A stretch of DNA of 64,000 bases from Aestuariivivens marinum (GTDB lineage: Bacteria > Bacteroidota > Bacteroidia > Flavobacteriales > Flavobacteriaceae): NCBI RefSeq assembly GCF_022662175.1, contig NZ_JAKMCR010000003.1, positions 1 to 64,000 on the forward strand, read 5' to 3'. Made by a program: the position numbers and the translations under genes. Under the pieces are notes generated by a model, which was not told where the DNA came from, did not search any database, and saw only the letters and a list, made by a program, of their open reading frames with translations. Of the stretch, positions 9,995-54,051 are shown in pieces; the stretch's first letter is position 1; each line of letters begins with the position of its first letter.

Positions 9995-10007
9995 TTTATA
10001 TCAATGT

Positions 10008-10056
10008 AATTCTATTTTAGTTCAAATAGTTTTGAACTCAAATTTAAAATAGAATT
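10008..10056 (+). promoter_or_regulatory. Large inverted repeat with embedded promoter box
   Basis: Outer arms AATTCTATTTTA (10008-10019) and TAAAATAGAATT (10045-10056) pair over 12 bp. Inner arms GTTCAAA (10020-10026) and TTTGAAC (10031-10037) pair over 7 bp around TAGT, with a 7-nt bulge on the right. TAGTTTTG (10027-10034), a perfect TAnnTTTG box, spans the loop and the inner arm. The structure ends 3 nt before the ATG at 10060. It can be an operator or an RNA hairpin. Confidence 0.65.
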
Positions 10057-37680: not shown

Positions 37681-37724
37681 ATGACATAAATCATGTTTTT
37701 AAAATTTGGTAAGGCTTAATTTTG
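37681..37724 (+). promoter_or_regulatory. Fnr-type site and promoter of hemN
   Basis: ATGACATAAATCAT (37681-37694) fits ATGAYnnnnRTCAT. The -7 box TAATTTTG is at 37717-37724. The palindrome centre (37687.5) is 36.5 bp from the last base of the box, which puts it at about -42 from the expected start: a class II activator position. No TTG is present at -33, as expected for an activator-dependent promoter. Confidence 0.75.
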
Positions 37725-37741
37725 TTTTATAATTGTTAGGT

Positions 37742-39106
37742 ATGTTAAGTTCATTAGTAAATAAATACAATGTAGCGGGACCTCGCTATACCAGTTACCC
37801 AACGGTACCTTACTGGAATGATAATACATTTTCGGTAGGGAAATGGCAGGAATCCCTAGTTAAATCGTTTCAAGAAAGTAATTTAAAAGAAGGGATAAGC
37901 CTTTATATTCATTTGCCATATTGTGAAAGCTTATGCACTTTTTGTGGCTGCAACAAGCGTATTACAAAACAGCATAATGTTGAATTTCCTTATATTGATG
38001 CCGTTTTAAAAGAATGGAAGTTATACAGGAGCTTTTTTAATGAAAAGCCCCTAATAAAGGAACTTCACCTGGGCGGTGGTACCCCCACTTTTTTTAGCCC
38101 AGAGAACTTAAAGCGCTTAATATATGGTATTTTAGAAGATGCTGAACTTAAGACGGAATATGAGTTTAGTTTTGAAGGCCACCCCAACAGCACAACAAAA
38201 GAACATTTACAGGCGCTATATAATGTGGGTTTCAGAAGAGTAAGTTATGGGGTGCAAGATTATAATCCAAAAGTACAAAAAGCAATACATAGGATTCAGC
38301 CTTTTGAACATGTGAAAAGGGTTACGGAATTAGCTAGAGAGATAGGTTATACATCGGTTGGGCACGATATTATTTTTGGTTTGCCTTTTCAAACTTTGGA
38401 GCATGTCAAGGAAACCATTTTAAAAACAAAGGCCTTGCTTCCAGATCGTTTGGCGTTTTATAGTTATGCACATGTCCCTTGGATTAAAGGTAATGGACAA
38501 CGTGGGTTTAAAGATTCTGATTTACCATCACCAGAATTAAAACGGCAACAATACGAAATTGGCAAACAGTTATTGGCTGAGGTTGGATATGAAGAAATTG
38601 GTATGGATCATTTTGCACTTAAAACAGATACCTTATACCAATCAATGGCTTTGGAAAAGCTACATAGAAACTTTATGGGGTATACTGCTTCTAAAACACA
38701 GGCTATGATTGGGTTGGGCGTGTCTTCCATTAGCGATAGTTGGTACGGTTTTGCACAAAACGTTAAAGACATTGAAAGCTATTATGATTTGTTGAGCGAA
38801 AATAAAATTCCTGTATATCGAGGACATATTTTAAATAAGGAAGATTTGATTATTCGTAAACATATTCTTAACTTGATGTGCCAATTTAAAACGTCTTGGA
38901 CTATAGATGAATTGTATTTTAATGAACTTCCCGATGTTATTATTGAGCTTAAGGAAATGGAAAAAGATAAGCTCATCATTATTGGTGAAAACTATGTTGA
39001 AGTAACTGAAAAGGGGAGACCGTTTGTTCGTAATATTTGTATGGCTTTCGACGTTTTGTTAAAGAGGAAACAACCAGAAACCAAACTGTTTTCAATGACT
39101 GTTTGA
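37742..39106 (+). CDS. hemN: Oxygen-independent coproporphyrinogen III oxidase
   Basis: A 454-residue radical-SAM enzyme. SAM-cluster Cys are in HLPYCESLCTFCGCNKRI (CxxxCxxCxC), preceded by the HemN N-terminal GPRYTSYPTVPYW. Other HemN features are HLGGGTPTFFSP, YGVQDYNPKVQKAIHRIQ, and EIGMDHFAL. It decarboxylates coproporphyrinogen III without oxygen, feeding haem to the cbb3 oxidase at low oxygen. The ATG at 37742 is chosen over a TTG three codons upstream. It is preceded by an Fnr-type site. The stress-protein gene follows after 87 bases. Confidence 0.95.
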   Translation: MLSSLVNKYNVAGPRYTSYPTVPYWNDNTFSVGKWQESLVKSFQESNLKEGISLYIHLPYCESLCTFCGCNKRITKQHNVEFPYIDAVLKEWKLYRSFFNEKPLIKELHLGGGTPTFFSPENLKRLIYGILEDAELKTEYEFSFEGHPNSTTKEHLQALYNVGFRRVSYGVQDYNPKVQKAIHRIQPFEHVKRVTELAREIGYTSVGHDIIFGLPFQTLEHVKETILKTKALLPDRLAFYSYAHVPWIKGNGQRGFKDSDLPSPELKRQQYEIGKQLLAEVGYEEIGMDHFALKTDTLYQSMALEKLHRNFMGYTASKTQAMIGLGVSSISDSWYGFAQNVKDIESYYDLLSENKIPVYRGHILNKEDLIIRKHILNLMCQFKTSWTIDELYFNELPDVIIELKEMEKDKLIIIGENYVEVTEKGRPFVRNICMAFDVLLKRKQPETKLFSMTV

Positions 39107-39157
39107 TTAGACAAAGAAATTGTCAAAGTTAACTCCTAGCAAACCTTTAAAATTGAA

Positions 39158-39177
39158 ATTCCCATGTAATTGGGAAT
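39158..39177. other. Hairpin between hemN and the stress-protein gene
   Basis: ATTCCCA (39158-39164) and TGGGAAT (39171-39177) form a 7-bp stem with no T-tract on either side. Probably a dispersed palindrome or a weak processing site, not a terminator. Confidence 0.4.
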
Positions 39178-39193
39178 CTAAAACAAAGAAATT

Positions 39194-40024
39194 ATGAAAA
39201 AAATTATTGTACCTATAGACTTTTCAGAACACTCGGAATACGCTTTGAAAGCAGCAGCTAAATTAGCACAAAAAAACAATGCAGAATTGTTGGTCTTACA
39301 CATGTTAGAAATGTCAGAAGTATTGTTGACCGCTAGTGGTGAAAACCCTCAAAAAGTGATTTATTTTTTAAAATTGGCAGAGCAACGCTTTGATGATTTT
39401 CTTAAAAAGGACTATTTAAAGGATGTTAAAATCAAGCCTATAGTAAAGCACTTTAAAGTATTTAGTGAAGTAAATGAAGTGGCTAAGAAGCATAATGCCG
39501 ATATTATTGTGATGGGATCACATGGTGCTAGTGGAGTTAAAGAATTTTTTGTAGGTTCTAATACCGAACGGGTAGTTCGTCATTCTGAAATTCCGGTTTT
39601 AGTGATAAAAAAGGAATTACCAGAAGTTAACTTTGAGGTAGTGGTCTATGCTTGTGATTTTTCGAATGAAAGCATAGAGTCCTTTATTAAAGCCACAAAG
39701 TTATTTGACAAAATGAAAACAAAATTGTACTTGGTACATGTAAACTTACCAAATGACCGATTTAGAAGTTCTGTTGAAATAGAACGTAATGTGACTAACT
39801 TTTTAACAAAAGCTGATGGTAACTTGGAAAGATTAGACAATGTAAGTTATGTTAGTGATTACACTGTAGAAGAAGGTATTTTAACATTTGCCAATAAAGT
39901 TGGGGCAGATTTAATAGCCATGTCTACCCATGGCAAAAAAGGTATTGCCCACTTTTTTGAAGGGAGTATAAGTGAGGATGTGGCTAACCATGCTACTTTG
40001 CCAGTTATGACCTTTAAAATTTAA
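39194..40024 (+). CDS. Tandem-domain universal stress protein
   Basis: A 276-residue protein with two Usp domains. First domain: IIVPIDFSEHSEYALKAAAK and the ATP loop GSHGASGVKEFFVGSNTERV. Second domain: FEVVVYACDFSNESIESFIK and STHGKKGIAHFFEGSISEDV. Both loops keep G-x2-G-x9-G. Such proteins aid survival under hypoxia and other stress. It follows hemN without its own obvious promoter, so it probably belongs to the Fnr-controlled unit. Confidence 0.88.
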   Translation: MKKIIVPIDFSEHSEYALKAAAKLAQKNNAELLVLHMLEMSEVLLTASGENPQKVIYFLKLAEQRFDDFLKKDYLKDVKIKPIVKHFKVFSEVNEVAKKHNADIIVMGSHGASGVKEFFVGSNTERVVRHSEIPVLVIKKELPEVNFEVVVYACDFSNESIESFIKATKLFDKMKTKLYLVHVNLPNDRFRSSVEIERNVTNFLTKADGNLERLDNVSYVSDYTVEEGILTFANKVGADLIAMSTHGKKGIAHFFEGSISEDVANHATLPVMTFKI

Positions 40025-40048
40025 AAGGCCTTAATTAGTCCTTTTTTT
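40023..40048. terminator. Bidirectional terminator with one mismatch
   Basis: AAAAGGCCT (40023-40031) and AGTCCTTTT (40037-40045) pair except for one C-T, followed by T on the right and A on the left. It separates the stress-protein gene and the convergent tolC-type gene. Confidence 0.65.
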
Positions 40049-41453
40049 CATTAACAATTGGATCATCTGAAAGTGCTAAAATATTGAAAAAGCTTGCTGT
40101 TGTGTTTAACAGGTTATTTTCAAGTGTAATTGCCTTTAATTTAGAATCAATAAGTTTTGATTCCCTTGAATTTATCAAAAACAAGGAGCTTTCTCCTAAA
40201 AACAATTTGCGTTCCTCTGCACGTAACATAGTTTTATAATCTTCAACTATTTCACTCGTAAGTTTGTTTTGTTGCTGGAGGGATAATATCTCTTGTTTTA
40301 TAGCTTCAATTTTATTTTTTAAAGTTATTTCAGTGGTTTTTAGTTCGAATTGAACATCTTGCACTTTAAGTTTGGTTAATTTTAAATCACCGCGTTCCTT
40401 TCTTAAAAACAATGGAAAACTAATATTTACACCACTTTTGTATGCTGAAGTACTAAATGATCTTAAAAGCTCAGGTGTTTGTGATAAAAAATTGTATTGC
40501 AAATCTATTTTTGGCAATAGGTTATTATACTTTAATCGTTTCTCAATATTTAAGCCTTTTAGCTTATAGTTAAGGGATTTTAGTTTTGGATGATTATTTA
40601 AATCACCATAATCAATGATAACATCAGAAACATTTAGAGTATTGCCAATTGTTTCCAATGTATTAGTGTCCGGTATGATGTTGTCTTTAATTTCTATAGG
40701 GGTATCTTCATTAAGCCATAAATAATTTGAAAGCTCCAGAGCCGATTTAATAAGCTTAATTCTTGCTTTTTCTAAATTTAATTTTCTGTTGTTCAATGCT
40801 ATTTTAGCCTCTAGAGTATCAATAGCAGGAGCCTCACCAGCTTCAAAACTTTTTTTTATGCCATTAAAACGTATGTCTGCATTTGTTAAAAATTCTTTAT
40901 ATGCTTGCTTTTCATTATAGGATTGAAGCCATTTAAAATAAGTTAATGTAGCTTCATATAAAATGTTGTTTATCAAAAGTTGCCTGTCTGCTTTTGCCTG
41001 TTTCAAAAATAATTTAGACTGCTTAAGTACAGCCATTCGGCTATTTATTAAGAGCCCACGAGCAACAGGTATTGATACTCCAGCACTGTACAACCCTTCG
41101 TTTGGGACATTTGCTTCAGGGTTTAAGAACAGCCCTTCGTTTTCCTCAAAACTGGCTTTAAATTCAATGCCATACCAGGTTGGAATTTTAAACGTAGCAT
41201 TTAACTTATCAAAGTATTCCTTACTTTTAAAGGTCTTTCTATTGTAATCAACTTCTAATTTGGGATCGAAGGCACCACGAGATTTTAATAGTTTAGCCTC
41301 ACTTTCGTTTAATACCAAATTGGCCTGTTTTACAATAGGGTGGTATTTTTTAACATAGCTCAAATACTCTGAAAGTGTTATTACAGATGAACTTTCTTGA
41401 GCGACCAAACTTCCACTAATAAAAACTAAAATATAGAAAATTAATGATTTCAT
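40035..41453 (-). CDS. TolC-family outer-membrane efflux protein
   Basis: A 472-residue protein with signal peptide (MKSLIFYILVFISGSLVAQ) and the two helical hairpin repeats of TolC proteins (YLSYVKKYHPIVKQANLVLNE; AKIALNNRKLNLEKARIKL; EILSLQQQNKLTSEIVEDYK). Last gene of a four-gene exporter operon, 6 bases after the HlyD gene. It should form the outer-membrane channel of the exporter. Confidence 0.9.
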   Translation of the reverse strand: MKSLIFYILVFISGSLVAQESSSVITLSEYLSYVKKYHPIVKQANLVLNESEAKLLKSRGAFDPKLEVDYNRKTFKSKEYFDKLNATFKIPTWYGIEFKASFEENEGLFLNPEANVPNEGLYSAGVSIPVARGLLINSRMAVLKQSKLFLKQAKADRQLLINNILYEATLTYFKWLQSYNEKQAYKEFLTNADIRFNGIKKSFEAGEAPAIDTLEAKIALNNRKLNLEKARIKLIKSALELSNYLWLNEDTPIEIKDNIIPDTNTLETIGNTLNVSDVIIDYGDLNNHPKLKSLNYKLKGLNIEKRLKYNNLLPKIDLQYNFLSQTPELLRSFSTSAYKSGVNISFPLFLRKERGDLKLTKLKVQDVQFELKTTEITLKNKIEAIKQEILSLQQQNKLTSEIVEDYKTMLRAEERKLFLGESSLFLINSRESKLIDSKLKAITLENNLLNTTASFFNILALSDDPIVNEKKD

Positions 41454-41459
41454 TTGCTA

Positions 41460-42818
41460 TTACTTCAAGTCTTTAGTACTAAACTCTGATTTGTCAACTG
41501 GTTGGTAATAATTTTTAGGAAAACTGTTTATCTGTCTCCATAGTTCGAACCATATAGGAACATCTTCCAATAAGGCAATGGTTCTGGTACCAGAACCCAC
41601 TCTAATGGCTTGGGGCCATTCTTTGTCATCTTTATCCGGGGCTAATAGAATTCGATATTTGCCATTGTCACTAATAAAGTTTTCTATAGCCACTATTGTA
41701 GCCCCATAGGTACCATAGCTTACATTTGGCCAACCACTAAACACAATAGCAGGCCATCCGTCAAATTGAACTCGTACTTTTTCACCAATATGTAGAAGGG
41801 GAAGGTCTATGGGTTCTACATAAGTTTCTACGGCAAAATCAAATTGTTTTGGCATGATACCAACCAACTCTTCACCTTCCTTAAAAGTAACTCCAACACC
41901 ACCTTTTAGTGCTTTGTTGATAAATCCGTTAATGGGCGCCGTAACATATAGTAAACTATTTCTAACCTTATAGTTAGTATAGTTATTTTCTAACTTTGTG
42001 ACTTGGGCTTCGGTATCAAAGCTATTAGATTGAGCTGTGAACATATCGCTTTGTGCTTTAGATATTTTGTCTACATATTCTTGGTTAACCCTAGTAAGCT
42101 CTAACTGTGCATTTATAACATTATTTTTACTGGTTAAAAGCTTATTTTCTTGGGCTATTAGTTTTGCTTGAGTTTCCTGAAGTTTCATTCGTTTTTCTTC
42201 AACATCCTTTACAGCTTTTAATCCTTCTTCCTGAAGGGTTAAAACCCTGTTATATTGTCTTTCGGCTATTGCCATATTTGTTTTTGAAGCCTCTAAGTCT
42301 ATACTGTCACTTTTAACCTTGAGATTGGCTTGCAACAATTTATTTTTAGTTTGTTGAAATTTTAACTTTTGTTCAGTTTTTAAAGCTGAAATCTGCGTAT
42401 TTAAAGCTTCAACTTTATTATGATAGGCATTTAATGATAAGGTCTTTGCTTCAATTTGTTTGTTGGTTCGTTCAACCAATTGGTTATCAAAATAATCGCT
42501 TTTAACTTCAGAAATCCTTAATATGGTATCACCTTGCTTTACAAAATCACCTTCTTGTACAAACCATTCTTCAATACGGCCTGGTATTTGTGATTGGATC
42601 GTTTGTGGTCGCTGATTTGGTTTTAAGGTGGTTACTTGCCCTCTACCCGTTATGTTTTGTGTCCATGGTAAAAACAAAACAATGAGTACAATACATGCAG
42701 CAACAATTAAAAACCTATTAAAGTATTTGTAATAAGATTTGTCTAATATATTTTTTCCAGATTTAAAGATGCTTAAATCTACCTTTTTATTTAACTGATT
42801 GTGTGAAATATTCAACAT
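41460..42818 (-). CDS. HlyD-family periplasmic adaptor
   Basis: A 452-residue protein: N-terminal membrane helix (FLIVAACIVLIVLFLPW), lipoyl-like half (IPGRIEEWFVQEGDFVKQGDTILRI), a long coiled coil (about residues 120-280) and a barrel half (YVTAPINGFINKALKGGVGVTFKEGEELVGIMP). It bridges the ABC protein and TolC. Four bases separate it from the ABC gene. Confidence 0.9.
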   Translation of the reverse strand: MLNISHNQLNKKVDLSIFKSGKNILDKSYYKYFNRFLIVAACIVLIVLFLPWTQNITGRGQVTTLKPNQRPQTIQSQIPGRIEEWFVQEGDFVKQGDTILRISEVKSDYFDNQLVERTNKQIEAKTLSLNAYHNKVEALNTQISALKTEQKLKFQQTKNKLLQANLKVKSDSIDLEASKTNMAIAERQYNRVLTLQEEGLKAVKDVEEKRMKLQETQAKLIAQENKLLTSKNNVINAQLELTRVNQEYVDKISKAQSDMFTAQSNSFDTEAQVTKLENNYTNYKVRNSLLYVTAPINGFINKALKGGVGVTFKEGEELVGIMPKQFDFAVETYVEPIDLPLLHIGEKVRVQFDGWPAIVFSGWPNVSYGTYGATIVAIENFISDNGKYRILLAPDKDDKEWPQAIRVGSGTRTIALLEDVPIWFELWRQINSFPKNYYQPVDKSEFSTKDLK

Positions 42819-42821
42819 AGA

Positions 42822-44483
42822 TTAAACAGTTTTAATTTCTCCCTTTTCTAAGGTTATTACTTCTTTACATTTGCCGTTCCAAAGAGTATTGCTACTAACT
42901 ACAATTAGCCCCCAAGGTCTATCTTTATTTGATAGATAATCAATAATGGCATTGGTTTCTTTACTATTGAATCTATCTAATGCATCTTCCAAAATCAATA
43001 CTTGTGGTTGTTTTAAAATGGCCCTAGCCAAAACAATTTTTTTAGACACTGTATGGGACATATGTTTCCCGTCTGGATATAAAACAGTTTGCAGGCCATT
43101 GGGTTGTTCTTTTAAAAAATCTAAAAGCCCAACATCTGTTAAGGTTTGAAAAATGGCTTTATCTGTAATTTTTGGGTCTCCAAAAGTTAGATTTTCCCTA
43201 ATAGTACCTTCAAAAGGGGTTTCTTCGGTTAGTGATAATCCTAATTGAGATCTATAATGATTAAGGTTTAAGCTATTTATGGACAAATTGTTTATGTGTA
43301 TATTGCCAGATGTAGGTTGAATGATTCCTGATATTAATTGTAATAAAGTAGATTTTCCTGAGCCACTTTCTCCCCTTATAATGATTCTACTTTTTGTGTC
43401 TATTTTAAGGGATATGTTATTTATAATAGGGTTATCCTTATTGGAAACTTTGTAAGATACGTTGTCAAATTCAATACTAATTCCATTTTTATAGTCAGGT
43501 GTATCACCGTTTAAATTTTCTAAGTCTTTGTCAACAATTTGCCCTAACTTTTCTATAGATGTTAGGACATCATAAAATGATTCCAGACCTAAGATTAATT
43601 TTTCAACTGAAGCAATGACAAGTATTATGATAATTTCGGCAGCAACAAACTGTCCTATATTCATTTCTTGGTTAAGTACCAAAGCACCACCTATTAACAA
43701 CAAGCTTGCAGTTACTATAACTTTAAAACCGATCATTTGAGTAAACTGACTTATTAATACCTTAAAATGCTTTTCTCGGGCATTTAAATAATCGTTAACC
43801 AAAATATCATTTTTATTTATGGCTAAAGTTGTATTTCCAGATAGTTTAAAACTAACTACTGTACGTGCAACTTCCTGAATCCAATGGGCCACACGGTATT
43901 TGTGTTTAGATTCCTGTAAACTTGTACGTAATCCTTTTTCTGCCGTGTATTTAAAAACAATAAGAATAAGGATTAACAACAATAAACCAAAAATGATAAA
44001 AAAAGGATGGTAGAAGGACAACAGAATTAAAGCAAATAAAATTTGTAAAATAGCTGTGGGTACGTCAATAAGTATTTTTGAGAGTCCTTTTTGAATCGTT
44101 AGGGTATCAAAAAAACGATTGGCCAATTCGGGAGGATAGTAGTTCCTTAGTGCATTCATTTTTATTTTTGGAAAGCGATAGCTCAACTCAAAAGATGAAC
44201 GCAAAAATATACGCTGTTGAATAGTTTCAATAATGCGTAGTTGCATAATTTGTAGTGCACCGGAAAATGCAACACCTAGTGTGACCAATATTACCAAAAT
44301 GAGCCAGGATGTTGATATTTCAGCTCCTTGAATAAGGTTGATAATTGTTTGAATTCCTAAAGGGAGTGAAAGGGCTACAACACCAGAAAAAATAGCATAA
44401 TAAAATATTTGCTGTATATCCTTTTTTTCTAGTTGAAGTAAACCTAGAAATCGTTTCCAAGGTGAAAGTGTCATTTTTTCCAT
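42822..44483 (-). CDS. ABC exporter with degenerate nucleotide-binding domain
   Basis: A 553-residue fused permease-ATPase of the type I secretion/exporter kind, without a C39 peptidase domain. Transmembrane domain about 20-310 (six helices), ATPase domain 335-553. Walker A is intact (GESGSGKST, 371-379). But the Q-loop Gln is Thr (LSLTEETPFEGTI), the LSGGQ signature is replaced by MSHTVSK (475-481), Walker B ends LILEDALD where LLLDEATS is usual, and the H-loop His is absent (VVSSNTLW). The neighbouring genes fit a tripartite exporter. Activity may be weak, or the motor may be atypical. TetR gene upstream at 2-base distance. Confidence 0.85.
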   Translation of the reverse strand: MEKMTLSPWKRFLGLLQLEKKDIQQIFYYAIFSGVVALSLPLGIQTIINLIQGAEISTSWLILVILVTLGVAFSGALQIMQLRIIETIQQRIFLRSSFELSYRFPKIKMNALRNYYPPELANRFFDTLTIQKGLSKILIDVPTAILQILFALILLSFYHPFFIIFGLLLLILILIVFKYTAEKGLRTSLQESKHKYRVAHWIQEVARTVVSFKLSGNTTLAINKNDILVNDYLNAREKHFKVLISQFTQMIGFKVIVTASLLLIGGALVLNQEMNIGQFVAAEIIIILVIASVEKLILGLESFYDVLTSIEKLGQIVDKDLENLNGDTPDYKNGISIEFDNVSYKVSNKDNPIINNISLKIDTKSRIIIRGESGSGKSTLLQLISGIIQPTSGNIHINNLSINSLNLNHYRSQLGLSLTEETPFEGTIRENLTFGDPKITDKAIFQTLTDVGLLDFLKEQPNGLQTVLYPDGKHMSHTVSKKIVLARAILKQPQVLILEDALDRFNSKETNAIIDYLSNKDRPWGLIVVSSNTLWNGKCKEVITLEKGEIKTV

Positions 44484-44485
44484 AG

Positions 44486-45157
44486 TTATGCATTAATGGT
44501 TTTAAAAACAAGATCCGTTAAAAATTCAGTTGGGGTAATAGTTGTATTACAATCAGTCATAGATACAAAGTGGTCTTTTAAAAAATGTTGATGCATACTG
44601 GCTTCCATAATAGTACTTGATAAGCTTGAAGGAAACTTGTAATCTGGATTTATTGTGAATATCATATCCCTAAGGCGGTGAACGATACGCTTATATATTT
44701 CAAAATACCCTTCTTTATTTTCATTGTCAACCTCTTTAGTGAGAAAGGATTTAGAGTTTTCATTGATAATGATCCTATTTAAAGCTAATTCATCAATATG
44801 GGAGTATTTAGAGTCTTCTTTAATACTTCTCGTAACAATTTCAATTGCTTTAGTAAGTTTATTAATAGAAGTAAGGCTGTATGTTTCAATGACCAGTTGA
44901 TATTCGATCCAAGCCCAATACCAAGACGATAAATACAATAATAGTTTATGTTTACTTTCAAAATACCTATATATAGAGCTTTCATTGGAGTTAATTTCCT
45001 GTCCTAATTTTTTGAATGTAAAACTTTCAAAACCCATTTCATCTATTAATTTAATACTGTGTTGTATTATTCGTTTACCTAAGGAAGAAGACTCAGGATC
45101 CTTGATATAAATCTTTTCTGGTACAGCTATTTTAATATTTGATAGTAATTTATCCAT
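44486..45157 (-). CDS. TetR-family regulator of the exporter operon
   Basis: A 223-residue protein with an N-terminal helix-turn-helix (RIIQHSIKLIDEMGFESFTFKKLGQEINSNESSIYRYFESKHKLL) and a ligand-binding C-terminal domain. The ATG at 45157 is preferred over an in-frame TTG at 45178, because that TTG is the end of the -7 box TATATTTG. It is the first gene of the TetR-ABC-HlyD-TolC operon and is probably autoregulated through the palindrome at 45182-45198. Confidence 0.88.
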   Translation of the reverse strand: MDKLLSNIKIAVPEKIYIKDPESSSLGKRIIQHSIKLIDEMGFESFTFKKLGQEINSNESSIYRYFESKHKLLLYLSSWYWAWIEYQLVIETYSLTSINKLTKAIEIVTRSIKEDSKYSHIDELALNRIIINENSKSFLTKEVDNENKEGYFEIYKRIVHRLRDMIFTINPDYKFPSSLSSTIMEASMHQHFLKDHFVSMTDCNTTITPTEFLTDLVFKTINA

Positions 45158-45175
45158 TGTCAATATATTTATATT

Positions 45176-45198
45176 CAAATATAATAGTAATACTATTA
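45176..45198 (-). promoter_or_regulatory. Promoter and TetR-type operator of the exporter operon
   Basis: On the minus strand TATATTTG (45176-45183) is a perfect -7 box. Adjoining it is the palindrome TAATAGTA-A-TACTATTA (45182-45198), a 17-bp site with a single central base. Its position between the -33 and -7 elements would let a dimeric repressor block transcription. Confidence 0.7.
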
Positions 45199-45267
45199 AT
45201 TATGAAATTAAATATATTGATTTTATCAATGCATTATAGAATTTAATTATTCTAAGCTAAAAAAAGG

Positions 45268-45969: not shown

Positions 45970-45970
45970 A

Positions 45971-46417: not shown

Positions 46418-46449
46418 TATCTAAATTCTATTAATAATTACCAAATAAC

Positions 46450-47874
46450 TTATTTATAACTCCTTGGCCCCAAAAAGTTGGCCGTTGTAGTTTCAATGAG
46501 CTGATTGTTTTGATAAACACCAATTTCAATTGTATTTCTATCGCCCGATAAGTCTGAATTGTTTATTTCAACAAACAGTGTCCCTTCAGCAATATCTTGT
46601 TTTGGTACTGTAAAACGATCATTAGTACCAACCAATTTCAATTCGCCTTTATGGGTCATTAATTTTAGGCTTATATGTTCAATATCATGTGTTGTTTTAT
46701 TTACCAGTTTATAAGTGAAAACATTGCTTATAATATTATTGTCCTTATGTTCATAGAGCTGGCCTGGTAATCTTAAGATTGTAGCTTCAACATCATTTCT
46801 TATGAAAAGCATACCAGTTAGTAACCCAATCAATATAGATAATACAGCAATGTAACCTTTCATTCGAGCCGTTAGCCTAAAAGGCACTTTTTTTTCTATA
46901 TTCTCTTCACTTGCATATCGAATAAGGCCTTTAGGCAGATTGATGCTTTCCATGATATGATCACATTCATCTATACAAGCGGTACAGTTTACACACTCTA
47001 GTTGAGTTCCATTTCTAATATCAATTCCTGTAGGACATACATGCACACATTGTAAGCAATCTATACAATCTCCATAACCTAAGGCTTGCCGATCTTCATT
47101 TTTTCTAAATTTTTTTCGCCCGTTTTCTCCCTCACCACGTTTGTGGTCATAAGCCACAACTATAGATTTTGTGTCCAACAATACTCCTTGAAGTCTACCA
47201 TAAGGACAAGCTATTATACAAACTTGTTCCCTAAACCATGCAAAAACAAAATAGAAAACTACAGTAAAAATAATTAATGGAAATAAGGTGCTTAAATGTT
47301 CTAATGGACCATCACTGATATACTTTAATAGTTTATCGCTTCCCACGAGATAAGCTAGAAAAACATTAGCAATCAAAAATGAAATGATTAAGAAAATAAC
47401 CCATTTCAAGATACGTTTTCTAATTTTTTCAATATTCCAAGCTTGCCTGTCTAGCTTACGTTGTTTATTTCGGTCACCCTCAATCCAGTATTCAATGCGT
47501 CGAAATACCATTTCCATAAAAATGGTTTGCGGACAGATCCAACCACAAAAAATACGTCCGAATGCCACTGTAAACAGTGTTATGAAAACCACACCTATAA
47601 TCATTGTTACCACAAATAAATGAAAGTCTTGTGGCCAAAAAGGAAAACCAAAAATGTTAAAACGTCGTTCTAAAACATTGAACATTAAGAATTGGTTCCC
47701 ATTTATTTTAATGAATGGAGATAAAAGTAAGAAAGCTAATAAAATATAGCTTATAAATTTTCTTTTATCATAGTATCTGCCATTAGGCTTTTTTGGAAAT
47801 ACCCAAGCGCGTTTACCTTCTTCTGTAATCGTACCAATAGAGTCTCTGAATTTTTCGCTATCTGGAGTTTCCAA
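46450..47874 (-). CDS. ccoG: cbb3 oxidase accessory protein CcoG
   Basis: A 474-residue polyferredoxin with about five membrane helices. Iron-sulfur Cys motifs: GRIFCGWICPQTIFMEMVFR, IIACPYGRLQG, GDCIDCLQCVHVCPTGIDIRNGTQ-type clusters (split as CIDCLQCVHVCP and CVNCTACIDECD). C-terminal IG-like domain from about residue 360. CcoG reduces copper for oxidase assembly. The start is TTG (47874); an in-frame stop lies not far upstream and the next Met is deep in the protein. A hairpin separates it from ccoP. Confidence 0.92.
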   Translation of the reverse strand: METPDSEKFRDSIGTITEEGKRAWVFPKKPNGRYYDKRKFISYILLAFLLLSPFIKINGNQFLMFNVLERRFNIFGFPFWPQDFHLFVVTMIIGVVFITLFTVAFGRIFCGWICPQTIFMEMVFRRIEYWIEGDRNKQRKLDRQAWNIEKIRKRILKWVIFLIISFLIANVFLAYLVGSDKLLKYISDGPLEHLSTLFPLIIFTVVFYFVFAWFREQVCIIACPYGRLQGVLLDTKSIVVAYDHKRGEGENGRKKFRKNEDRQALGYGDCIDCLQCVHVCPTGIDIRNGTQLECVNCTACIDECDHIMESINLPKGLIRYASEENIEKKVPFRLTARMKGYIAVLSILIGLLTGMLFIRNDVEATILRLPGQLYEHKDNNIISNVFTYKLVNKTTHDIEHISLKLMTHKGELKLVGTNDRFTVPKQDIAEGTLFVEINNSDLSGDRNTIEIGVYQNNQLIETTTANFLGPRSYK

Positions 47875-47890
47875 AGGGTTTGGGTTAAAA

Positions 47891-47921
47891 GATTCCCTTT
47901 ATTTTTAAAACAAAGGGAATC
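47891..47921 (-). terminator. Possible attenuator between ccoP and ccoG
   Basis: GATTCCCTTT (47891-47900) and AAAGGGAATC (47912-47921) form a 10-bp stem with an 11-nt loop. On the minus strand it is followed by TTTTAACCC, a short T-run. It could cut transcription partly so that accessory genes are made at lower level than the oxidase subunits. Confidence 0.65.
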
Positions 47922-47947
47922 TAGTTGAGTTGGCTATTAATCTGTTC

Positions 47948-48856
47948 TTATTGAACTGGGTTTACTTGGGTTTCTTTATTTTCAGCTTCCCACAAATCAC
48001 CTTCGGGGTCTTTTGGGTTAGCTGGTGTGGTACCTTGGAAAGTTAGCACGTAACTTGCAACCTGTGCTATTTCTATAGGTTTTAATTGTTGTTTCCAAGC
48101 AATCATTCCTTTGCCCGAACGCCCACCTTCTGAAACGGTTTCAAAAATGCTTTTAATATCGCCACCCATAATCCAATGTTTGTCAGTAAGATTTGGTCCA
48201 ATACCACCTCCACCATCGGACATATGGCAAGCTACACAGTTGGTTTCAAAAATGGTTTTACCTGCACTTAAATCGGAAGCATCAGTAAGTTGTTCAACTG
48301 TGTTCACATCAACGAGGTTCTTGGCCGTTTTTTTGTATTCTTCAAGAGCGGCTCTAGCATCGGCAAGTTCGGTTTCCAATTCATCAAATTGACCTGCTCC
48401 ATCAAATACATGGTATCGTAATAGGTAAACAGTTGCAAAGATTATTGTCACATAGAATCCATATAACCACCAAGGCGGTAAGCTATTATCTAACTCCTTA
48501 ATACCATCGTAATTATGGTCCAAAACAATTTCATGCTCTTCTTCAAGAGGTCTAAGAGTCCAAAGTTTTTCATTATAAAACTTTTTCAGCTTAGCAAAGC
48601 TGTATTTACTTTCTTTCTCGGCCAAAAAGCGTGCTTTACCTGCTTCATCTAATTTATGTAACATGACATTTTCCAGAGCGCTTATTATGGCTTCAATGGC
48701 AATTAGGATGAGCAATACTAAAAAAAGAAACAGCAATACGCTAGGAAATTCTACAAATGCAGGTTTTTCTCCGGAGTCTATAAAGTACTCTACAGCACCA
48801 AAAATGATGAAGAATACAATGGGTACCCTTACCCAGGATGGAATTAAGTTTCTCAT
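47948..48856 (-). CDS. ccoP: cbb3 oxidase subunit CcoP, single haem
   Basis: A 302-residue protein: two N-terminal hydrophobic segments, then the CcoP N-terminal motif YDGIKELDNSLPPWWLYGFYVTIIF, and one cytochrome c domain (ETNCVACHMSDGGGGIGPNLTDKHW, with axial Met in KGMIAWKQQL). Proteobacterial CcoP has two haems; this one shows one CxxCH, as usual in Bacteroidota. It overlaps ccoQ by four bases. Confidence 0.93.
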   Translation of the reverse strand: MRNLIPSWVRVPIVFFIIFGAVEYFIDSGEKPAFVEFPSVLLFLFLVLLILIAIEAIISALENVMLHKLDEAGKARFLAEKESKYSFAKLKKFYNEKLWTLRPLEEEHEIVLDHNYDGIKELDNSLPPWWLYGFYVTIIFATVYLLRYHVFDGAGQFDELETELADARAALEEYKKTAKNLVDVNTVEQLTDASDLSAGKTIFETNCVACHMSDGGGGIGPNLTDKHWIMGGDIKSIFETVSEGGRSGKGMIAWKQQLKPIEIAQVASYVLTFQGTTPANPKDPEGDLWEAENKETQVNPVQ

Positions 48857-49038
48857 AATATATTGTCGTTTTGGTTGTCTAATGGCATATTACTTACTTT
48901 ATTTATATAGTCTTTTTTGGCAGTTACTACCCACCAAGCCAGTACTACAAAAAAGATAAAAAAGATGAGTAGGGAAATAATCGGATAGATTTCTATACCT
49001 GAAATGCTTTCCATATGGTTTTTTACAAATTTCAACAT
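48853..49038 (-). CDS. ccoQ: CcoQ/FixQ-type small subunit
   Basis: A 61-residue protein with one membrane helix (IYPIISLLIFFIFFVVLAWWVV) and a short charged tail. It sits between ccoNO and ccoP, overlapping ccoP by ATGA, as expected for the small stabilising subunit. The ATG at 49038 is preferred over a TTG five codons upstream. Confidence 0.82.
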   Translation of the reverse strand: MLKFVKNHMESISGIEIYPIISLLIFFIFFVVLAWWVVTAKKDYINKVSNMPLDNQNDNIL

Positions 49039-49056
49039 AGTTTTAAATTTCAAAGG

Positions 49057-51261
49057 TTATTCCGTACCTTCATGAATATCGGTTCCTAGGCGTTGCAAAT
49101 AGGCTATAAGTGCAACGATTTCCCTGTTTTTCATCTCAACAAATTCTTGGCCGTTTTCTGCAGCATATTGCTTATTGGCTTCATAGTTTTTGGCAAAATC
49201 CGGATCGTTATAAAGATTCTGTTCTATTTGAGCACCTTGATCCAGCATGCTTTGTTGTGCATTAGTGATGTCTTCATCACTGTAAGGGACACCTAAAGAT
49301 ACCATGGTTCTCATTTTGGCTTCGGTTTGTGACTTGTCAAGCTTGCTCGATGGACCTGTAATTAACCATGGGTAACGAGGCATAATGGAGCCTGATGAGG
49401 TACTTTGTGGGTCGTACATGTGGTTAAAGTGCCAGTTATCGGAATACTTACCACCAAGCCTATGTAAATCTGGACCTGTACGCTTACTGCCCCACAGGAA
49501 AGGATGGTCGTAAACATATTCACCAGCCTTTGAATATTGTTTGTTGTTTGCTCTCCAATCATAACGCTCTACTTCACTTCTAAACGGACGAATCATTTGT
49601 GAATGACAGCCCACACAGCCTTCACGTATATATATATCCCGACCTTCTAGTTCAAGTGGTGTATAAGGTTTTACACTAGCAATTGTAGGTATATTAGATT
49701 TTACCATAATAGTTGGTACAATTTGTATGATGCCACCTATTAATATGGCTATGGTAGCTAATAAGGTTAATTGTACAGGTCTTCTTTCTAACCATGTATG
49801 CCAACCTTCATTAGCAGTACGTCTTTTAGTAACACGTTCCAGTGCAGGAGCCTCTGCTAATTCATCTTCTACTTTACTTCCACTTTTAATAGTGGCAATA
49901 ATGTTATAAACCAAAATCAATAATCCAACAATATATAAGGTACCACCAATGGCACGCATCCAATACATAGGAATTATTTCGGTAACGGTCTCTAAAAAGT
50001 TTCCATAAACCAATGTGCCATCTGGGTTAAACTGTTTCCACATACTGGCTTGGGTAAATCCTGCAACATACATGGGTAGAGCATAGATGATAATACCCAA
50101 TGTTCCTAGCCAGAAATGTAAATTGGCTAAGCCCAGAGAAAACAGTTTTGTTTTAAATAGTCGTGGAATTAGGTAATAGATAATACCAAAGGCCATAAAA
50201 CCATTCCAAGCCAATGCTCCTACATGCACATGAGCAATAATCCAGTCAGTAAAGTGGGCAATAGCGTTTACGTTTTTTAATGATAGTGTTGGTCCCTCAA
50301 ACGTAGCCATACCGTATCCAGTAATCGCCACTACCATGAATTTTAAAACGGGATCGGTACGTACCTTATCCCAAGCACCTCTCAATGTTAACAATCCATT
50401 AATCATACCACCCCAAGAAGGCATCAATAGCATTACAGAGAATACCACTCCCAAATTTTGTGCCCATTCCGGTAAGGCAGTGTATAATAAATGGTGTGGG
50501 CCTGCCCATATATATATAAAGATAAGTGACCAAAAGTGTACAATGGAAAGCCTATATGAGTATACAGGTCTATTGGCTGCTTTAGGCACAAAGTAATACA
50601 TAATACCTAAAAACGGGGTCGTTAAGAAGAATGCCACTGCATTATGTCCATACCACCACTGTACTAAGGCATCCTGTACACCGGCATAAACCGAGTAACT
50701 TTTTAGGGCGCTAACAGGAAGCTCCAAACTATTAAAGATGTGTAATACAGCAACAGTTACAAAAGTGGCTATGTAGAACCAAATAGCAACATATAAATGA
50801 CGTTGGCGACGTTTTAAAATGGTCCAGATCATGTTTACGCCAAATACAACCCATATTAGTGCAATGGCAATGTCTATAGGCCATTCCAATTCGGCATATT
50901 CTTTAGAGGTCGTAATACCTAAAGGTAATGTTATCGCAGCAGCTACAATAATGAGCTGCCAGCCCCAAAAGTTGATATTACTTAGTAGGTCACTTGCCAT
51001 TCGCGCTTTTAATAAACGTTGCAGTGAATAATAAATCCCCGCAAACATGGCATTTCCAACAAAGGCAAAAATAACAGCATTGGTGTGTAATGGTCTTAAA
51101 CGTCCAAAGCTTAACCACGAAATACCATCAGTAAGATTTGGAAATAGGAACATAAAGGCCAGTAAAAGCCCTACTAACATACCTACTACTCCAAAAACTA
51201 TTGTGGCATAAATGAACTTGGTAACGATTTTGTTATCGTAATGAAACTGTTGCATTTCCAT
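49057..51261 (-). CDS. ccoNO: Fused cbb3 oxidase subunits I and II
   Basis: A 734-residue fusion. Residues about 1-480 are CcoN: haem-copper helices with LRPLHTNAVIFAFVGNAMF, WWYGHNAVAFFLTTPFLGIMYYF (copper B His), WAGPHHLLYTALPEW, and HVHVGALAWNGF. Residues about 500-734 are CcoO: membrane anchor, then haem c site REGCVGCHSQMIRPF and later PRYPWLI. This is the terminal oxidase catalytic core with high oxygen affinity. Fusion of N and O is characteristic of Bacteroidota. It is preceded by ccoS by 14 bases. Confidence 0.96.
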   Translation of the reverse strand: MEMQQFHYDNKIVTKFIYATIVFGVVGMLVGLLLAFMFLFPNLTDGISWLSFGRLRPLHTNAVIFAFVGNAMFAGIYYSLQRLLKARMASDLLSNINFWGWQLIIVAAAITLPLGITTSKEYAELEWPIDIAIALIWVVFGVNMIWTILKRRQRHLYVAIWFYIATFVTVAVLHIFNSLELPVSALKSYSVYAGVQDALVQWWYGHNAVAFFLTTPFLGIMYYFVPKAANRPVYSYRLSIVHFWSLIFIYIWAGPHHLLYTALPEWAQNLGVVFSVMLLMPSWGGMINGLLTLRGAWDKVRTDPVLKFMVVAITGYGMATFEGPTLSLKNVNAIAHFTDWIIAHVHVGALAWNGFMAFGIIYYLIPRLFKTKLFSLGLANLHFWLGTLGIIIYALPMYVAGFTQASMWKQFNPDGTLVYGNFLETVTEIIPMYWMRAIGGTLYIVGLLILVYNIIATIKSGSKVEDELAEAPALERVTKRRTANEGWHTWLERRPVQLTLLATIAILIGGIIQIVPTIMVKSNIPTIASVKPYTPLELEGRDIYIREGCVGCHSQMIRPFRSEVERYDWRANNKQYSKAGEYVYDHPFLWGSKRTGPDLHRLGGKYSDNWHFNHMYDPQSTSSGSIMPRYPWLITGPSSKLDKSQTEAKMRTMVSLGVPYSDEDITNAQQSMLDQGAQIEQNLYNDPDFAKNYEANKQYAAENGQEFVEMKNREIVALIAYLQRLGTDIHEGTE

Positions 51262-51275
51262 AAGTAAATAATTTG

Positions 51276-51461
51276 TTATTCTTTTTTGGTTAGTATTGAT
51301 TTCTTGTTTTTTTCTTTAATGAGTTCATCTTCAAAGAGCATCCTTACAGAAGGGGTGTAGCTATCGTCATACTGTCCGCTTCTTACCGCCAAAATAAAGG
51401 CAATAAAAAAAACAACAGCTACAGAAATGCTTATAGCTAACAAAATATATATAACACTCAT
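51276..51461 (-). CDS. ccoS: cbb3 oxidase assembly protein CcoS
   Basis: A 61-residue protein with one N-terminal helix (MSVIYILLAISISVAVVFFIAFILAVRSGQYDD); the SGQYDD after the helix is the CcoS signature. It is needed for cofactor insertion in cbb3 oxidase. First gene of the cco operon, behind the Fnr-type promoter. Confidence 0.93.
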   Translation of the reverse strand: MSVIYILLAISISVAVVFFIAFILAVRSGQYDDSYTPSVRMLFEDELIKEKNKKSILTKKE

Positions 51462-51481
51462 ACCTATTTGAAGTGATGGTT

Positions 51482-51525
51482 CAAAAATAATTTTATACCT
51501 ATTTTCAAAATATGACTTTTATCAT
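51482..51525 (-). promoter_or_regulatory. Fnr-type site and promoter of the cco operon
   Basis: Plus-strand ATGACTTTTATCAT (51512-51525) fits ATGAYnnnnRTCAT. On the minus strand TATTTTTG (51489-51482) is the -7 box. Centre to last base of the box: 36.5 bp, the same as at hemN. The leader to the ccoS ATG is about 15-20 nt. Confidence 0.75.
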
Positions 51526-51589
51526 GTTTTTAATAAAGTCTTAAAATTCTTTATTGACTTTGAAATCCTCAGTTTTATATATACTGTCT

Positions 51590-53965
51590 TCATCTCAACC
51601 TTCTATTAACAAAGTTTGTCGCCACCGTAGTAAAGACTACAATGCTAATGGAGCTTAAAGGCATCAAAATAGCAGCTATGATAGGTGATAATTGTCCTGT
51701 AACCGCAAATGACAAACCAATAACATTATATATAAAAGATAGAACAAAACTCCATTTGATTATTTTTATAGCTGATTTTGAAATACTTATGTACTCATAC
51801 AAATGCTTAAATTTTGAAGCATCCAAAATGGCATCACAAGCTGGAGAAAATACATTAACATTTTCTGAAATGGCAATGCCTACATCACTTTGTGCTAACG
51901 CCCCAGCATCATTTAAACCATCTCCAATCATTAATACCTTAGCACCTTCACTTTGATGGTATTTAATGTATTCTAATTTATCCTCTGGTTTCTGTTTAAA
52001 CAACAATTTGGTTTTTGCAGGTAACAATTTAGTTAAATTATCTTTTTCTCCTGCATTATCTCCTGAAAGAATGACTAAATCGTAGTCCTTTTTAAGTTTG
52101 TTGAACAATTTGGAAAGTCCTGTTCTATATTTGTTATAAAAGGTAAACTTTCCTTTGTAATTGTTGTTTGTGGTAATATGTACTGATGTATTTAATGTAG
52201 TAACATCTAGATTAAGGCCAACAAAAGGAGCTGAACCTATCTTTATGTTGTGGTTTTTATGTTTAGCTTCAATACCCTTACCCAAATGTTCTTCAAAATA
52301 ATCCAATGAAACGATATCGTTCGCTTTTAAAATGCTATAAAGTGATCTACTGAGTGGATGGTTGGAGCCACGTAAGGTGCTTTTCAATAAAGTTTCTTCC
52401 TTATCATTAAGTTGCTGTCCTTCATAGTGTATGGCGGTTTCTTTATTGGTGGTTATGGTGCCAGTCTTGTCAAAAATAATGGTATTTATTTTAGCCAATT
52501 GTTCTATTACTGATGCATTTTTTAGGTAAAACTTTTTCTTTCCAAAAATCCGTAACACATTCCCAAAGGTAAATGGAGCGGCCAATGCTATAGCACAAGG
52601 GCATGCAATAATAAGTACAGACGTAAAGACGTTTAATGCTTTACTGGAATCAGTTAACAACCAGAAGCTGGTTGCTATAAGCGCTATTGATAAAATGCTT
52701 ATAGTGAAGCTTTTACTTATGCGGTTGGTAATATCGGTAAAAGAAAGTGCCTTATCCTTTTTAAACACATCGTTGCTCCACAATTGTGTTAGGTAACTTT
52801 GCTCAACTGATTTTAGAACATCTACTTCTATACTTCCATCCAATTGTTTACCGCCAGCAAAAAGCTTGTCACCAGATTGTTTTGAAACAGTTCTTGATTC
52901 TCCGGTTACAAAACTGTAATCAACACGTGCGTTACCTTTTATAAGAATACAATCGACAGGTATGAGTTCTTCATTTCTAATTAGAAGGCGATCACCTTTT
53001 CGTATGTCATAAACCTGAATGGATTCTTCAGTATTGTCATTAGTTATCTTAGTAATGCCAATGGGAAAATATGATTTATAGTCACGTTCAAAAGATAAAA
53101 AACTATAGGTTTTTTGTTGAAAAAATTTCCCAAGCAATAAAAAGAAAATAAGTCCCGTTAAACTGTCAAAAAAACCAGAGCCCATATCAAAAATAATATC
53201 TAAGGAACTACGTACAAAAAGTACGATAACACCCAAAGCAATGGGGACATCGATATTAAGAATTTTGGAACGTAAACCTTTAAAGGCAGATACAAAATAA
53301 CCTTGGGCTGCGTATACCACCACAGGTACTGAATAAGCAAACATTAGCCACCTAAAGAGGTGTTTGTATTGTTCTAACCAAAATTCCCCCACTTGAAAAT
53401 ATTCTGGAAAAGATAAAAACATGACGTTACCGAATGCAAAACCAGCAACTCCTAATTTGTATATCAATGAGCGGTCCACATGCTTTTTGCCCACACTATA
53501 ATCTTCTAAGCTAATATAGGGTTCGTAGCCAATACTGCTCAAAAGGGTTACCAAATTTTTTAATGATAATTGCTGAGGAGTATAAGTGACCCTTACGGTT
53601 TTTTTTCCAAAGACAACCATAGAGGAACTTACGGCGGGATTTAACTTGTTTAAGTTTTCCAAAATCCAAATACAGGAGCTACAATGTATATGAGGAATGT
53701 AAAGTGTAATGATTTGTACATCATTGTCTTTAAACTCCAGTAACTGATCCACAATTTTAGCGTTATCTAAAAAGTTGTATTTCCCTTCAATATCTTTAGG
53801 TGTGGCACCTGGAGCCTGTTGTAAGTCATAGTAACATGTTAAATCGTTGATACTGAAAATCTCATAAACGGTCTTGCAGCCATTGCAACAAAACGTTTTG
53901 TCATCATAATATATACCAGAAGATGCAGCATCCAAACCGCAGTGGAAACATGTTTTATGCTCCAT
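51590..53965 (-). CDS. ccoI: CcoI-type copper-exporting P-type ATPase
   Basis: A 791-residue P1B ATPase. N-terminal Cys-rich region (CFHCG and CCNGCKTVYEIF), HMA domain with HCSSCIWILENL, transmembrane CPC motif (IACPCAIALAAP), phosphorylation loop FDKTGTITTNKE, and hinge MIGDGLNDAGALAQSDVGIA. The duplicated metal-binding start is typical of CcoI, which supplies copper for cbb3 assembly. Divergent from fnr, and preceded by the third Fnr-type site. Confidence 0.94.
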   Translation of the reverse strand: MEHKTCFHCGLDAASSGIYYDDKTFCCNGCKTVYEIFSINDLTCYYDLQQAPGATPKDIEGKYNFLDNAKIVDQLLEFKDNDVQIITLYIPHIHCSSCIWILENLNKLNPAVSSSMVVFGKKTVRVTYTPQQLSLKNLVTLLSSIGYEPYISLEDYSVGKKHVDRSLIYKLGVAGFAFGNVMFLSFPEYFQVGEFWLEQYKHLFRWLMFAYSVPVVVYAAQGYFVSAFKGLRSKILNIDVPIALGVIVLFVRSSLDIIFDMGSGFFDSLTGLIFFLLLGKFFQQKTYSFLSFERDYKSYFPIGITKITNDNTEESIQVYDIRKGDRLLIRNEELIPVDCILIKGNARVDYSFVTGESRTVSKQSGDKLFAGGKQLDGSIEVDVLKSVEQSYLTQLWSNDVFKKDKALSFTDITNRISKSFTISILSIALIATSFWLLTDSSKALNVFTSVLIIACPCAIALAAPFTFGNVLRIFGKKKFYLKNASVIEQLAKINTIIFDKTGTITTNKETAIHYEGQQLNDKEETLLKSTLRGSNHPLSRSLYSILKANDIVSLDYFEEHLGKGIEAKHKNHNIKIGSAPFVGLNLDVTTLNTSVHITTNNNYKGKFTFYNKYRTGLSKLFNKLKKDYDLVILSGDNAGEKDNLTKLLPAKTKLLFKQKPEDKLEYIKYHQSEGAKVLMIGDGLNDAGALAQSDVGIAISENVNVFSPACDAILDASKFKHLYEYISISKSAIKIIKWSFVLSFIYNVIGLSFAVTGQLSPIIAAILMPLSSISIVVFTTVATNFVNRRLR

Positions 53966-53991
53966 AATATTTGCTCAAATTATACCCGTTG

Positions 53992-54051
53992 CAAATGTTA
54001 AGATATAGAAAATATTTTAATATGATATATGTCATGTTTTGCTTACTTTTG
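53992..54051. promoter_or_regulatory. Divergent ccoI/fnr promoter region with Fnr-type site
   Basis: ATGATATATGTCAT (54022-54035) fits ATGAYnnnnRTCAT. Towards ccoI (minus strand) the box AACATTTG (one mismatch to TAnnTTTG, last base 53992) lies at 36.5 bp from the centre, as at hemN and ccoS. Towards fnr (plus strand) TACTTTTG (54044-54051) is only 22.5 bp from the centre, so the site covers the -33 region. Expected outcome: activation of ccoI, repression of fnr. Confidence 0.7.

Follow-up and report, generated by a model that had tools for sequence, protein, structure and literature searches.

In this work, we have analysed a 64,000-nucleotide stretch of the Aestuariivivens marinum genome (the window: positions 1 to 64,000 of contig NZ_JAKMCR010000003.1) that carries genes for a cbb3-type cytochrome oxidase, for its copper pump CcoI and for the oxygen-independent haem synthesis enzyme HemN, together with a gene at 54073 for a regulator of the Crp/Fnr superfamily. 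Are the palindromes of the form ATGAYnnnnRTCAT found before hemN, ccoS and ccoI the sites of that regulator, and what would it do there? We propose that they serve to activate a low-oxygen regulon and are placed as in class II promoters, with the Fnr-like protein 54073 as main regulator, and we put the probability of this reading at about 0.82. A Crp/Fnr-family dimer would bind the palindrome, centred at -41.5 where the -33 element would be, and would bring RNA polymerase with sigma-A to a -7 box of the form TAnnTTTR, as in class II activation. Protein 54073, probably active when a proposed [4Fe-4S] cluster is intact, i.e. at low oxygen, would turn on ccoS-N-O-P-G (the cbb3 oxidase), ccoI and hemN and, elsewhere in the genome, the genes for nitrate reductase, cytochromes and fermentation. 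What the sequences themselves show are the sites with their spacing and conservation, the classes of target and the coupling to regulator genes; binding, the cluster with its ligands, oxygen sensing, activation, autorepression and the start sites are inferred.

Palindromes and their spacing to the -7 box

An earlier note on this DNA had described the three palindromes and had put the centre of each exactly 36.5 bp from the last base of the -7 box. All three are present where it had placed them, and the distance is the same at hemN, ccoS and ccoI:

37681..37694, + strand, Fnr-type palindrome ATGACATAAATCAT of the hemN promoter, predicted centre -41.5
37717..37724, + strand, -7 box TAATTTTG of the hemN promoter
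51512..51525, - strand, Fnr-type palindrome ATGATAAAAGTCAT of the ccoS promoter, predicted centre -41.5
51482..51489, - strand, -7 box TATTTTTG of the ccoS operon
54022..54035, - strand, Fnr-type palindrome ATGACATATATCAT, predicted centre at -41.5 of the ccoI promoter and at -27.5 of the regulator's promoter on the opposite strand
53992..53999, - strand, -7 box AACATTTG of ccoI

The hemN and ccoS boxes have the full Bacteroidota consensus TAnnTTTG, and in the ccoI box, AACATTTG, the first T is missing. The palindrome occurs four times in the window, where 0.30 matches were expected, and none of 100 shuffled sequences reached four. The fourth match, at 27805 inside an open reading frame (ORF) with a DUF6638 domain, was rejected as a regulatory site and is probably due to chance. 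Across the 3.21 Mb genome we counted 47 palindromes, 31 intergenic and 16 within ORFs by mechanical ORF calls, and 20 occurrences of the reversed pattern. When the 47 were read in both orientations (94 in all), seven had TAnnTTTG at 36.5 bp while every other offset had at most two; 0.07 were expected per offset, which gives a binomial P of about 2e-12, uncorrected for the 120 or so offsets.

Class II sites of CRP and FNR are centred at -41.5. The sigma-A box TAnnTTTG of Flavobacterium psychrophilum has been placed at -12 to -5 (PMC9723704), and since our palindromes lie 36.5 bp above the end of the box, at -5 by this placement, their centre is predicted at -41.5. With the box position taken from F. 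psychrophilum, the class II geometry claimed in the earlier note is supported. Among 31 promoters of the A. marinum genome chosen for this geometry (at most one mismatch), positions -34 to -31 are A/T-rich and a TTG is found between -36 and -29 in four, so that most of the 31 show no -33 element.

Are site and spacing kept in relatives? The conservation test covered the cco, ccoI and hemN promoters only. The cco survey used 80 loci with a regulator gene (the best 80 of 355 confirmed); L074 among them has no divergent ccoI. The hemN survey used 30 genera of the family, our own included (the best 30 of 42 hemN-matching genomes in a set of 60, i.e. A. marinum and 59 relatives). A palindrome lies within 160 bp upstream of ccoI in 77 of 79 loci, with TTTG ending at 36.5 bp in 73 of the 77 boxes; ccoS has the palindrome in 75 of 76 loci, with TAnnTTTG at 36.5 bp in 72 of the 75; and hemN has it in 27 of 30 loci, with TTTG at 36.5 bp in 26 of the 30. 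The outer bases, though left free in the search, are A..T at all 78 ccoI and all 75 ccoS sites. The ccoI boxes of the relatives have a base other than T in the first position in 76 of 77 cases, A at position 2 in 76 of 77 and TTTG in 73 of 77: the missing first T is a conserved weak box and not an error of the first reading, and a box so consistently weakened would fit dependence on an activator.

The spacing also emerges when it is left free. With gaps of 8 to 38 bp allowed between palindrome and box in the 60 genomes, a gap of 22, which is the 36.5 spacing, accounted for 83 of the 139 rows from genomes other than our own among the matches listed; in the same matches the other 30 gaps had a mean of 1.9 rows and a maximum of six (gaps 23 and 8), and four of the six rows with gap 8 directly precede the fnr gene. 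The exact composite of site and spacing was found at 283 places in 114 of the 295 genomes of a class-wide set, against three places for the reversed-pattern control, and offers a nearly background-free genome scan for the regulon. The core TGAYn4RTCA at the exact spacing gave 398 places against seven for the control in the 60 genomes, and in a phylum sample of 296 genomes the free-gap search had matches in 135. The enrichment at this spacing before respiratory genes of relatives, which the earlier note had led one to look for, is thus present. Given a short core in an AT-rich genome, with 16 of the 47 palindromes within ORFs and the reversed pattern itself occurring 20 times, chance or base composition might be thought to explain the sites; the control counts, the spacing peak and the promoter conservation make this a practically negligible possibility for the whole set, which we reject, while single sites may be chance.

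A different matter is the phylum genome G607, which lies outside the class and has 25 free-gap matches against one for the control, far more than any other out-of-class genome of the sample.

The Fnr-like regulator

The protein encoded at 54073 belongs to the Crp/Fnr superfamily (PF00027, 66.6 bits; PF13545, 61.9 bits; both above cut-off) and had one match in its own genome at E <= 1e-25. Its AlphaFold model has a mean predicted local distance difference test (pLDDT) score of 75.9, and Foldseek gave template modelling (TM) scores of 0.73-0.75 to a holo-FNR structure, which confirms the Crp/Fnr fold only. An FNR-type regulator is thus encoded next to a site, that of ccoI at 54022..54035, as had been noted before. 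Judged from its sequence, the protein is not FNR proper by its cysteine set, its helix or its curated score; the FnrL model gave 64.1 bits against a cut-off of 300.

All six cysteines of the regulator are invariant in it and in 80 near relatives. Alignment to Aliivibrio fischeri FNR pairs C4, C7 and C106 with FNR cysteines, which we take to be C20, C23 and C122 in the E. coli numbering, and puts N13 at the third N-terminal position. The earlier statement that the regulator keeps the Fnr cysteines therefore stands for three of the four positions; the equivalent of FNR Cys29 is missing, and the strand cysteine C53 is conserved instead. Among the window protein and 20 class homologues, C4, C7, C53 and C106 are present in 21 of 21, and C29 and C59 in five each. 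A wider sample of 42 proteins, 41 of them picked by similarity to the window protein and hence biased towards its cysteines, had all four in 34, the first two and the last in two, none in three, and one or two in three; both proteins without C53 alone have a further N-terminal cysteine. In 14 of the 34, the window protein included, C53 is needed to reach four cysteines without C29 or C59. We infer from this pattern that C4, C7, C53 and C106 would be the ligands of the [4Fe-4S] cluster in the flavobacterial protein, and this gives a sharp hypothesis, that an oxygen-sensing cluster is held here by another set of ligands.

The recognition helix, described earlier as E-S-x-x-R, reads T-E-S-A-I-R: the glutamate and the arginine are as described, and an isoleucine stands where the E-x-x-S-R helix of FNR, which reads TTGAT, has its serine. 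The E, I and R are invariant in 81 proteins. The half-site differs from the E. coli TTGAT at its outer base, as the earlier note had it, most sites being ATGAY, and the exchange of serine for isoleucine goes in step with the replacement of TTGAT by ATGAY.

Another Crp-family gene, at 36245-36913 and 0.8 kb from hemN, was rejected as the regulator; the region of its helix reads T-S-R-P-T-L-N, with neither the E nor the R, and it has no CxxC.

A receiver-CRP fusion and the coupling of sites to regulator genes

A second candidate regulator is encoded elsewhere in the genome. At C6:107831-108886 we found a receiver-CRP fusion (REC-CRP), made up of REC, cNMP and HTH_Crp domains. Before it lies the gene for a PAS histidine kinase of 635 aa and after it a universal stress gene that has a palindrome upstream (cassette C6:105927-109815, equal to L097:7928-11816). 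The helix of the fusion, A-P-E-T-L-I-R, carries the same E-x-x-I-R signature as the Fnr-like regulator, and the fusion probably uses the same geometry. In nine of 79 loci (L061, L067, L071, L079, L081, L083-L086) genes are inserted between ccoI and fnr; by the likeness of their starts, all nine inserts hold kinase-like, response-regulator-like and universal-stress-like genes, and a palindrome lies 36.5 bp from a TAnnTTTG before the stress gene. In L071, which together with the own-genome pair was the part of these cassettes covered by Pfam, the insert encodes a histidine kinase with a PAS domain and a fusion of a receiver with a CRP-type protein. A palindrome follows the receiver-CRP gene within 100 bp in 16 of 19 loci, and in nine its first site has TAnnTTTG or TAnnTTTA at gap 22. 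Matches to the A. marinum fusion (E <= 1e-45) occur in 141 of the 295 class genomes.

Which of the two proteins do the sites follow? The 60 genomes were split by matches to Fnr (E <= 1e-35) and to REC-CRP (E <= 1e-60), and sites were present in 44 of the 45 genomes with one or both of them vs five of the 15 with neither. Genomes with both had sites in 11 of 11 cases (mean 14.5), those with Fnr only in 29 of 30 (mean 6.7), those with REC-CRP only in four of four (6-10 each, mean 8.3), and those with neither had 0-1 each (mean 0.3). In the 295 class genomes the exact composite was found in 38 of 47 with both, 36 of 67 with Fnr only, 33 of 94 with REC-CRP only and seven of 87 with neither; the Fnr matches of this count (E <= 1e-40) were not filtered by cysteines and include two cysteine-free proteins, those of genomes G040 and G053. 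Matches between 1e-25 and 1e-40 were rejected as weak Fnr homologues, at least four of them (G072, G087, G152, G193) coinciding with REC-CRP genes.

Because a receiver-CRP protein with the same helix also tracks the sites, these cannot be assigned to protein 54073 alone. One may go further and suppose that REC-CRP, fed by its PAS kinase, is the main activator and that Fnr is minor or repressive: the helix signature is shared, the four genomes with REC-CRP and no Fnr match keep their sites where the genomes with neither have almost none, and a palindrome comes right after the REC-CRP gene in most loci. We consider this unlikely, as Fnr without REC-CRP goes with sites nearly always (29 of 30 genomes, or 26 of 27 by a stricter definition of Fnr), the palindrome is fixed beside the fnr gene itself, and the genomes with REC-CRP only favour a C at the promoter-distal outer base, where the three window sites have A. 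In those genomes the distal base is A in nine sites and another in 24 (20 of them C..T), vs A in 83 and another in 59 in genomes of the family with Fnr only (Fisher P 0.002, which ignores relatedness), and their hemN sites have CTGAT in three of three.

With the Fnr-like protein kept as main regulator, the receiver-CRP partner suggests a second sharp hypothesis, that of a phosphorylation-driven stand-in for FNR. We are probably dealing with a Bacteroidota FNR-like regulon that has its own half-site and two inputs. A fuller version would see one low-oxygen regulon of the Bacteroidota, with one palindrome at -41.5 and two chemically different inputs, a ligand-rearranged flavobacterial FNR and a phosphorylation-driven receiver-CRP. 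In the former the third ligand would sit on a beta-strand and no longer in the N-terminal loop; the latter, fed by a PAS kinase, could replace Fnr altogether in some genera; and an outer A or C at the promoter-distal end would partly sort the two, the promoter-proximal half-site being mostly kept. This version is tentative, with the odds slightly against it. Of the 34 proteins with all four cysteines, 20 also have a third cysteine 3-12 residues past the CxxC (14 as CX2CX8C), which argues against a shift of ligand and made us lower our estimate from even odds; all 20 come from outside the near relatives.

Several observations weigh against the regulon as we propose it. The regulator scores 91.6 bits with the NCBIfam Fnr model NF008365, whose cut-off is 228, and lacks the third N-terminal cysteine of FNR. 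Three of the 41 Fnr matches (G023, G040, G053) start only at residue 24-35, and two of these proteins, those of G040 and G053 (loci L211 and L210), have none of the four cysteines and keep the helix T-E-S-A-I-R; as their genomes carry six and ten sites, the site does not need a cysteine-bearing Fnr, and the two cysteine-free proteins may represent a third kind of regulator acting there. When truncated Fnr proteins are counted as non-Fnr, sites are found in 26 of 27 genomes with Fnr only (mean 6.8) and in eight of 18 with neither regulator (mean 1.2). Genome size accounts for part of the coupling, because 13 of the 15 genomes that have neither regulator are smaller than 2 Mb. By the strict pattern, the exact composite is absent from 31 of 67 class genomes with Fnr only and from 61 of 94 with REC-CRP only. 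As to conservation, L031 has no palindrome before ccoI and that of L030 lies beyond 160 bp, three ccoI loci have TAnnTTTG at 35.5 instead of 36.5 bp, three of the 30 hemN loci examined have no palindrome, and the relatives are not independent of one another. Further regulators may share the geometry, because palindromes with other outer bases keep the spacing: among 150 rows with a 5' base other than A in the matches listed, GTGAY..RTCAC accounts for 18 and TTGAY..RTCAA for 17. Finally, Crp/Fnr homologues from metagenome-assembled genomes of Flavobacteriales and Saprospiraceae have been put in a MalR-like carbon-sensing group (PMC8510549), an assignment that either concerns other proteins or speaks against our proposal.

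Targets, the fnr promoter and known systems

The genes that lie beside the window sites, with the second box of the ccoI palindrome, are:

37742..39106, + strand, hemN, oxygen-independent coproporphyrinogen III oxidase (TIGR00538, 426 bits, cut-off 325); start set at ATG 37742, the ORF list having TTG 37733
39194..40024, + strand, universal stress protein gene (PF00582), a possible second gene of the hemN transcript
51276..51461, - strand, ccoS, which opens the cbb3 oxidase gene row (TIGR00847, PF03597)
49057..51261, - strand, ccoN-ccoO fusion, cbb3 oxidase subunits I/II (NF011053, 1329 bits)
47948..48856, - strand, ccoP, cbb3 oxidase subunit III (PF14715, PF13442; TIGR00782 under its cut-off)
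46450..47874, - strand, ccoG accessory protein (TIGR02745, 429 bits)
51590..53965, - strand, ccoI, P-type ATPase of the copper-transporting type, for assembly of the cbb3 oxidase (PF00122, PF12156, PF00403), named by position and domains
54073..54750, + strand, Fnr-like regulator with cysteines 4, 7, 29, 53, 59 and 106 and recognition helix T-E-S-A-I-R
54044..54051, + strand, -7 box TACTTTTG of the promoter of the regulator gene itself, with the palindrome centre 22.5 bp away

The ccoI palindrome may serve two promoters, its centre being also 22.5 bp from the box TACTTTTG that faces the regulator gene. In relatives this box is often TATTTTTA, at the same place; 65 of 70 site rows keep the A of its TA pair, and the box mostly ends in A and not G. 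At a predicted -27.5 the palindrome would lie inside the core promoter of fnr, which suggests autorepression: an occupied site would repress fnr while activating ccoI.

How far does the regulon extend? The earlier note had described a low-oxygen regulon of three sites; the respiratory and low-oxygen character of the targets stood, and the limit to three promoters did not, the regulon being much larger. We listed the promoters of the A. marinum genome with the geometry and at most two mismatches and named the products by Pfam and NCBIfam. The putative targets include phosphotransacetylase (pta), monohaem and multihaem cytochromes, a 4Fe-4S dicluster protein, pyruvate phosphate dikinase, NapD followed by NapA (984 bits vs a cut-off of 904), CBS-domain proteins, universal stress proteins, DnaJ, YceI, ResB, a D-2-hydroxyacid dehydrogenase and several functionally uncharacterised proteins. 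Taken by family, this is in good part a low-oxygen and anaerobic set. Single assignments are provisional, because many boxes are TAnnTTTA and some genes lie at an unusual distance.

The presence of napD-napA and of multihaem cytochromes among the putative targets, together with a cysteine set unlike that of FNR, could also mean that the signal sensed is nitric oxide or the general redox state instead of oxygen, and that the regulator governs a nitrosative or nitrate-respiration regulon. To our knowledge, nitric oxide sensors of the DNR/NnrR type do not have these cysteines, and it is the promoters of the cbb3 oxidase, its copper pump and hemN that were tested for conservation. Oxygen limitation is described as raising the cbb3 oxidase and haem synthesis genes of F. 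psychrophilum (PMC9723704), and we hold a nitric oxide or redox regulon to be quite unlikely.

The low-oxygen regulon proposed here shares with FNR of E. coli and A. fischeri the Crp/Fnr fold, the cysteines C20/C23/C122, the E and R of the helix, and a dyad with a 4-bp spacer at the class II position of -41.5, predicted in our case; cbb3 and hemN-type targets are typical of FNR-type regulators. It differs in that the regulator has no cysteine at the position of FNR C29 and has C53 instead, that S212 is replaced by I, that the half-site is ATGAY and not TTGAT, that the -7 box is of the Bacteroidota type, and that the protein falls far under the NCBIfam Fnr cut-off. Regulons of the Anr/FnrL type (Pseudomonas Anr, Rhodobacter FnrL) include cbb3 targets, and we know of no receiver-CRP partner in them. 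In proteobacteria hemN is among their core targets (PMC6588701); their half-site and promoter type differ from those here. A closer parallel in one respect is the rhizobial FixLJ-FixK system, in which a PAS kinase and a response regulator are tied to a CRP-family regulon for the cbb3 oxidase; FixJ, which activates fixK, carries a different output domain, whereas in the fusion described here the receiver is directly joined to a CRP-type output. The best relative of the regulator in the PDB, by sequence (96 bits) and by fold, is 2gau, a Crp/Fnr-family protein of Porphyromonas gingivalis; the sequence match starts at residue 35, so that the N-terminal CxxC lies outside it. Among the open-licence papers listed in a search not aimed at receiver-CRP proteins, and judged by title or abstract, we found no description of such a regulon or site in flavobacteria.

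Site-bearing promoters are dense in two regions of the A. marinum genome: C6:87000-125000, with the nap operon and CBS, universal stress protein, DnaJ and MlaE genes, and C6:385000-417000, with multihaem cytochromes, ResB/CcsB and NHL-repeat proteins. Two site-bearing DUF7486 genes of unknown function in the same genome (L005:778-1395 and L112:1377-2531) are candidates for low-oxygen roles.

Sites of the E. coli type were also seen. The relatives G036 and G048 have several TTGAY..RTCAA composites each, and a TTGATnnnnATCAA site at 9991 of the window likewise has the 36.5 spacing:

9991..10034, + strand, candidate further site TTGATTTATATCAA with TAGTTTTG at 36.5 bp, preceding a DUF2807 ORF (10060); a single place

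The half-site of TTGATTTATATCAA is of the E. coli type, and this site perhaps belongs to another Crp/Fnr regulator.

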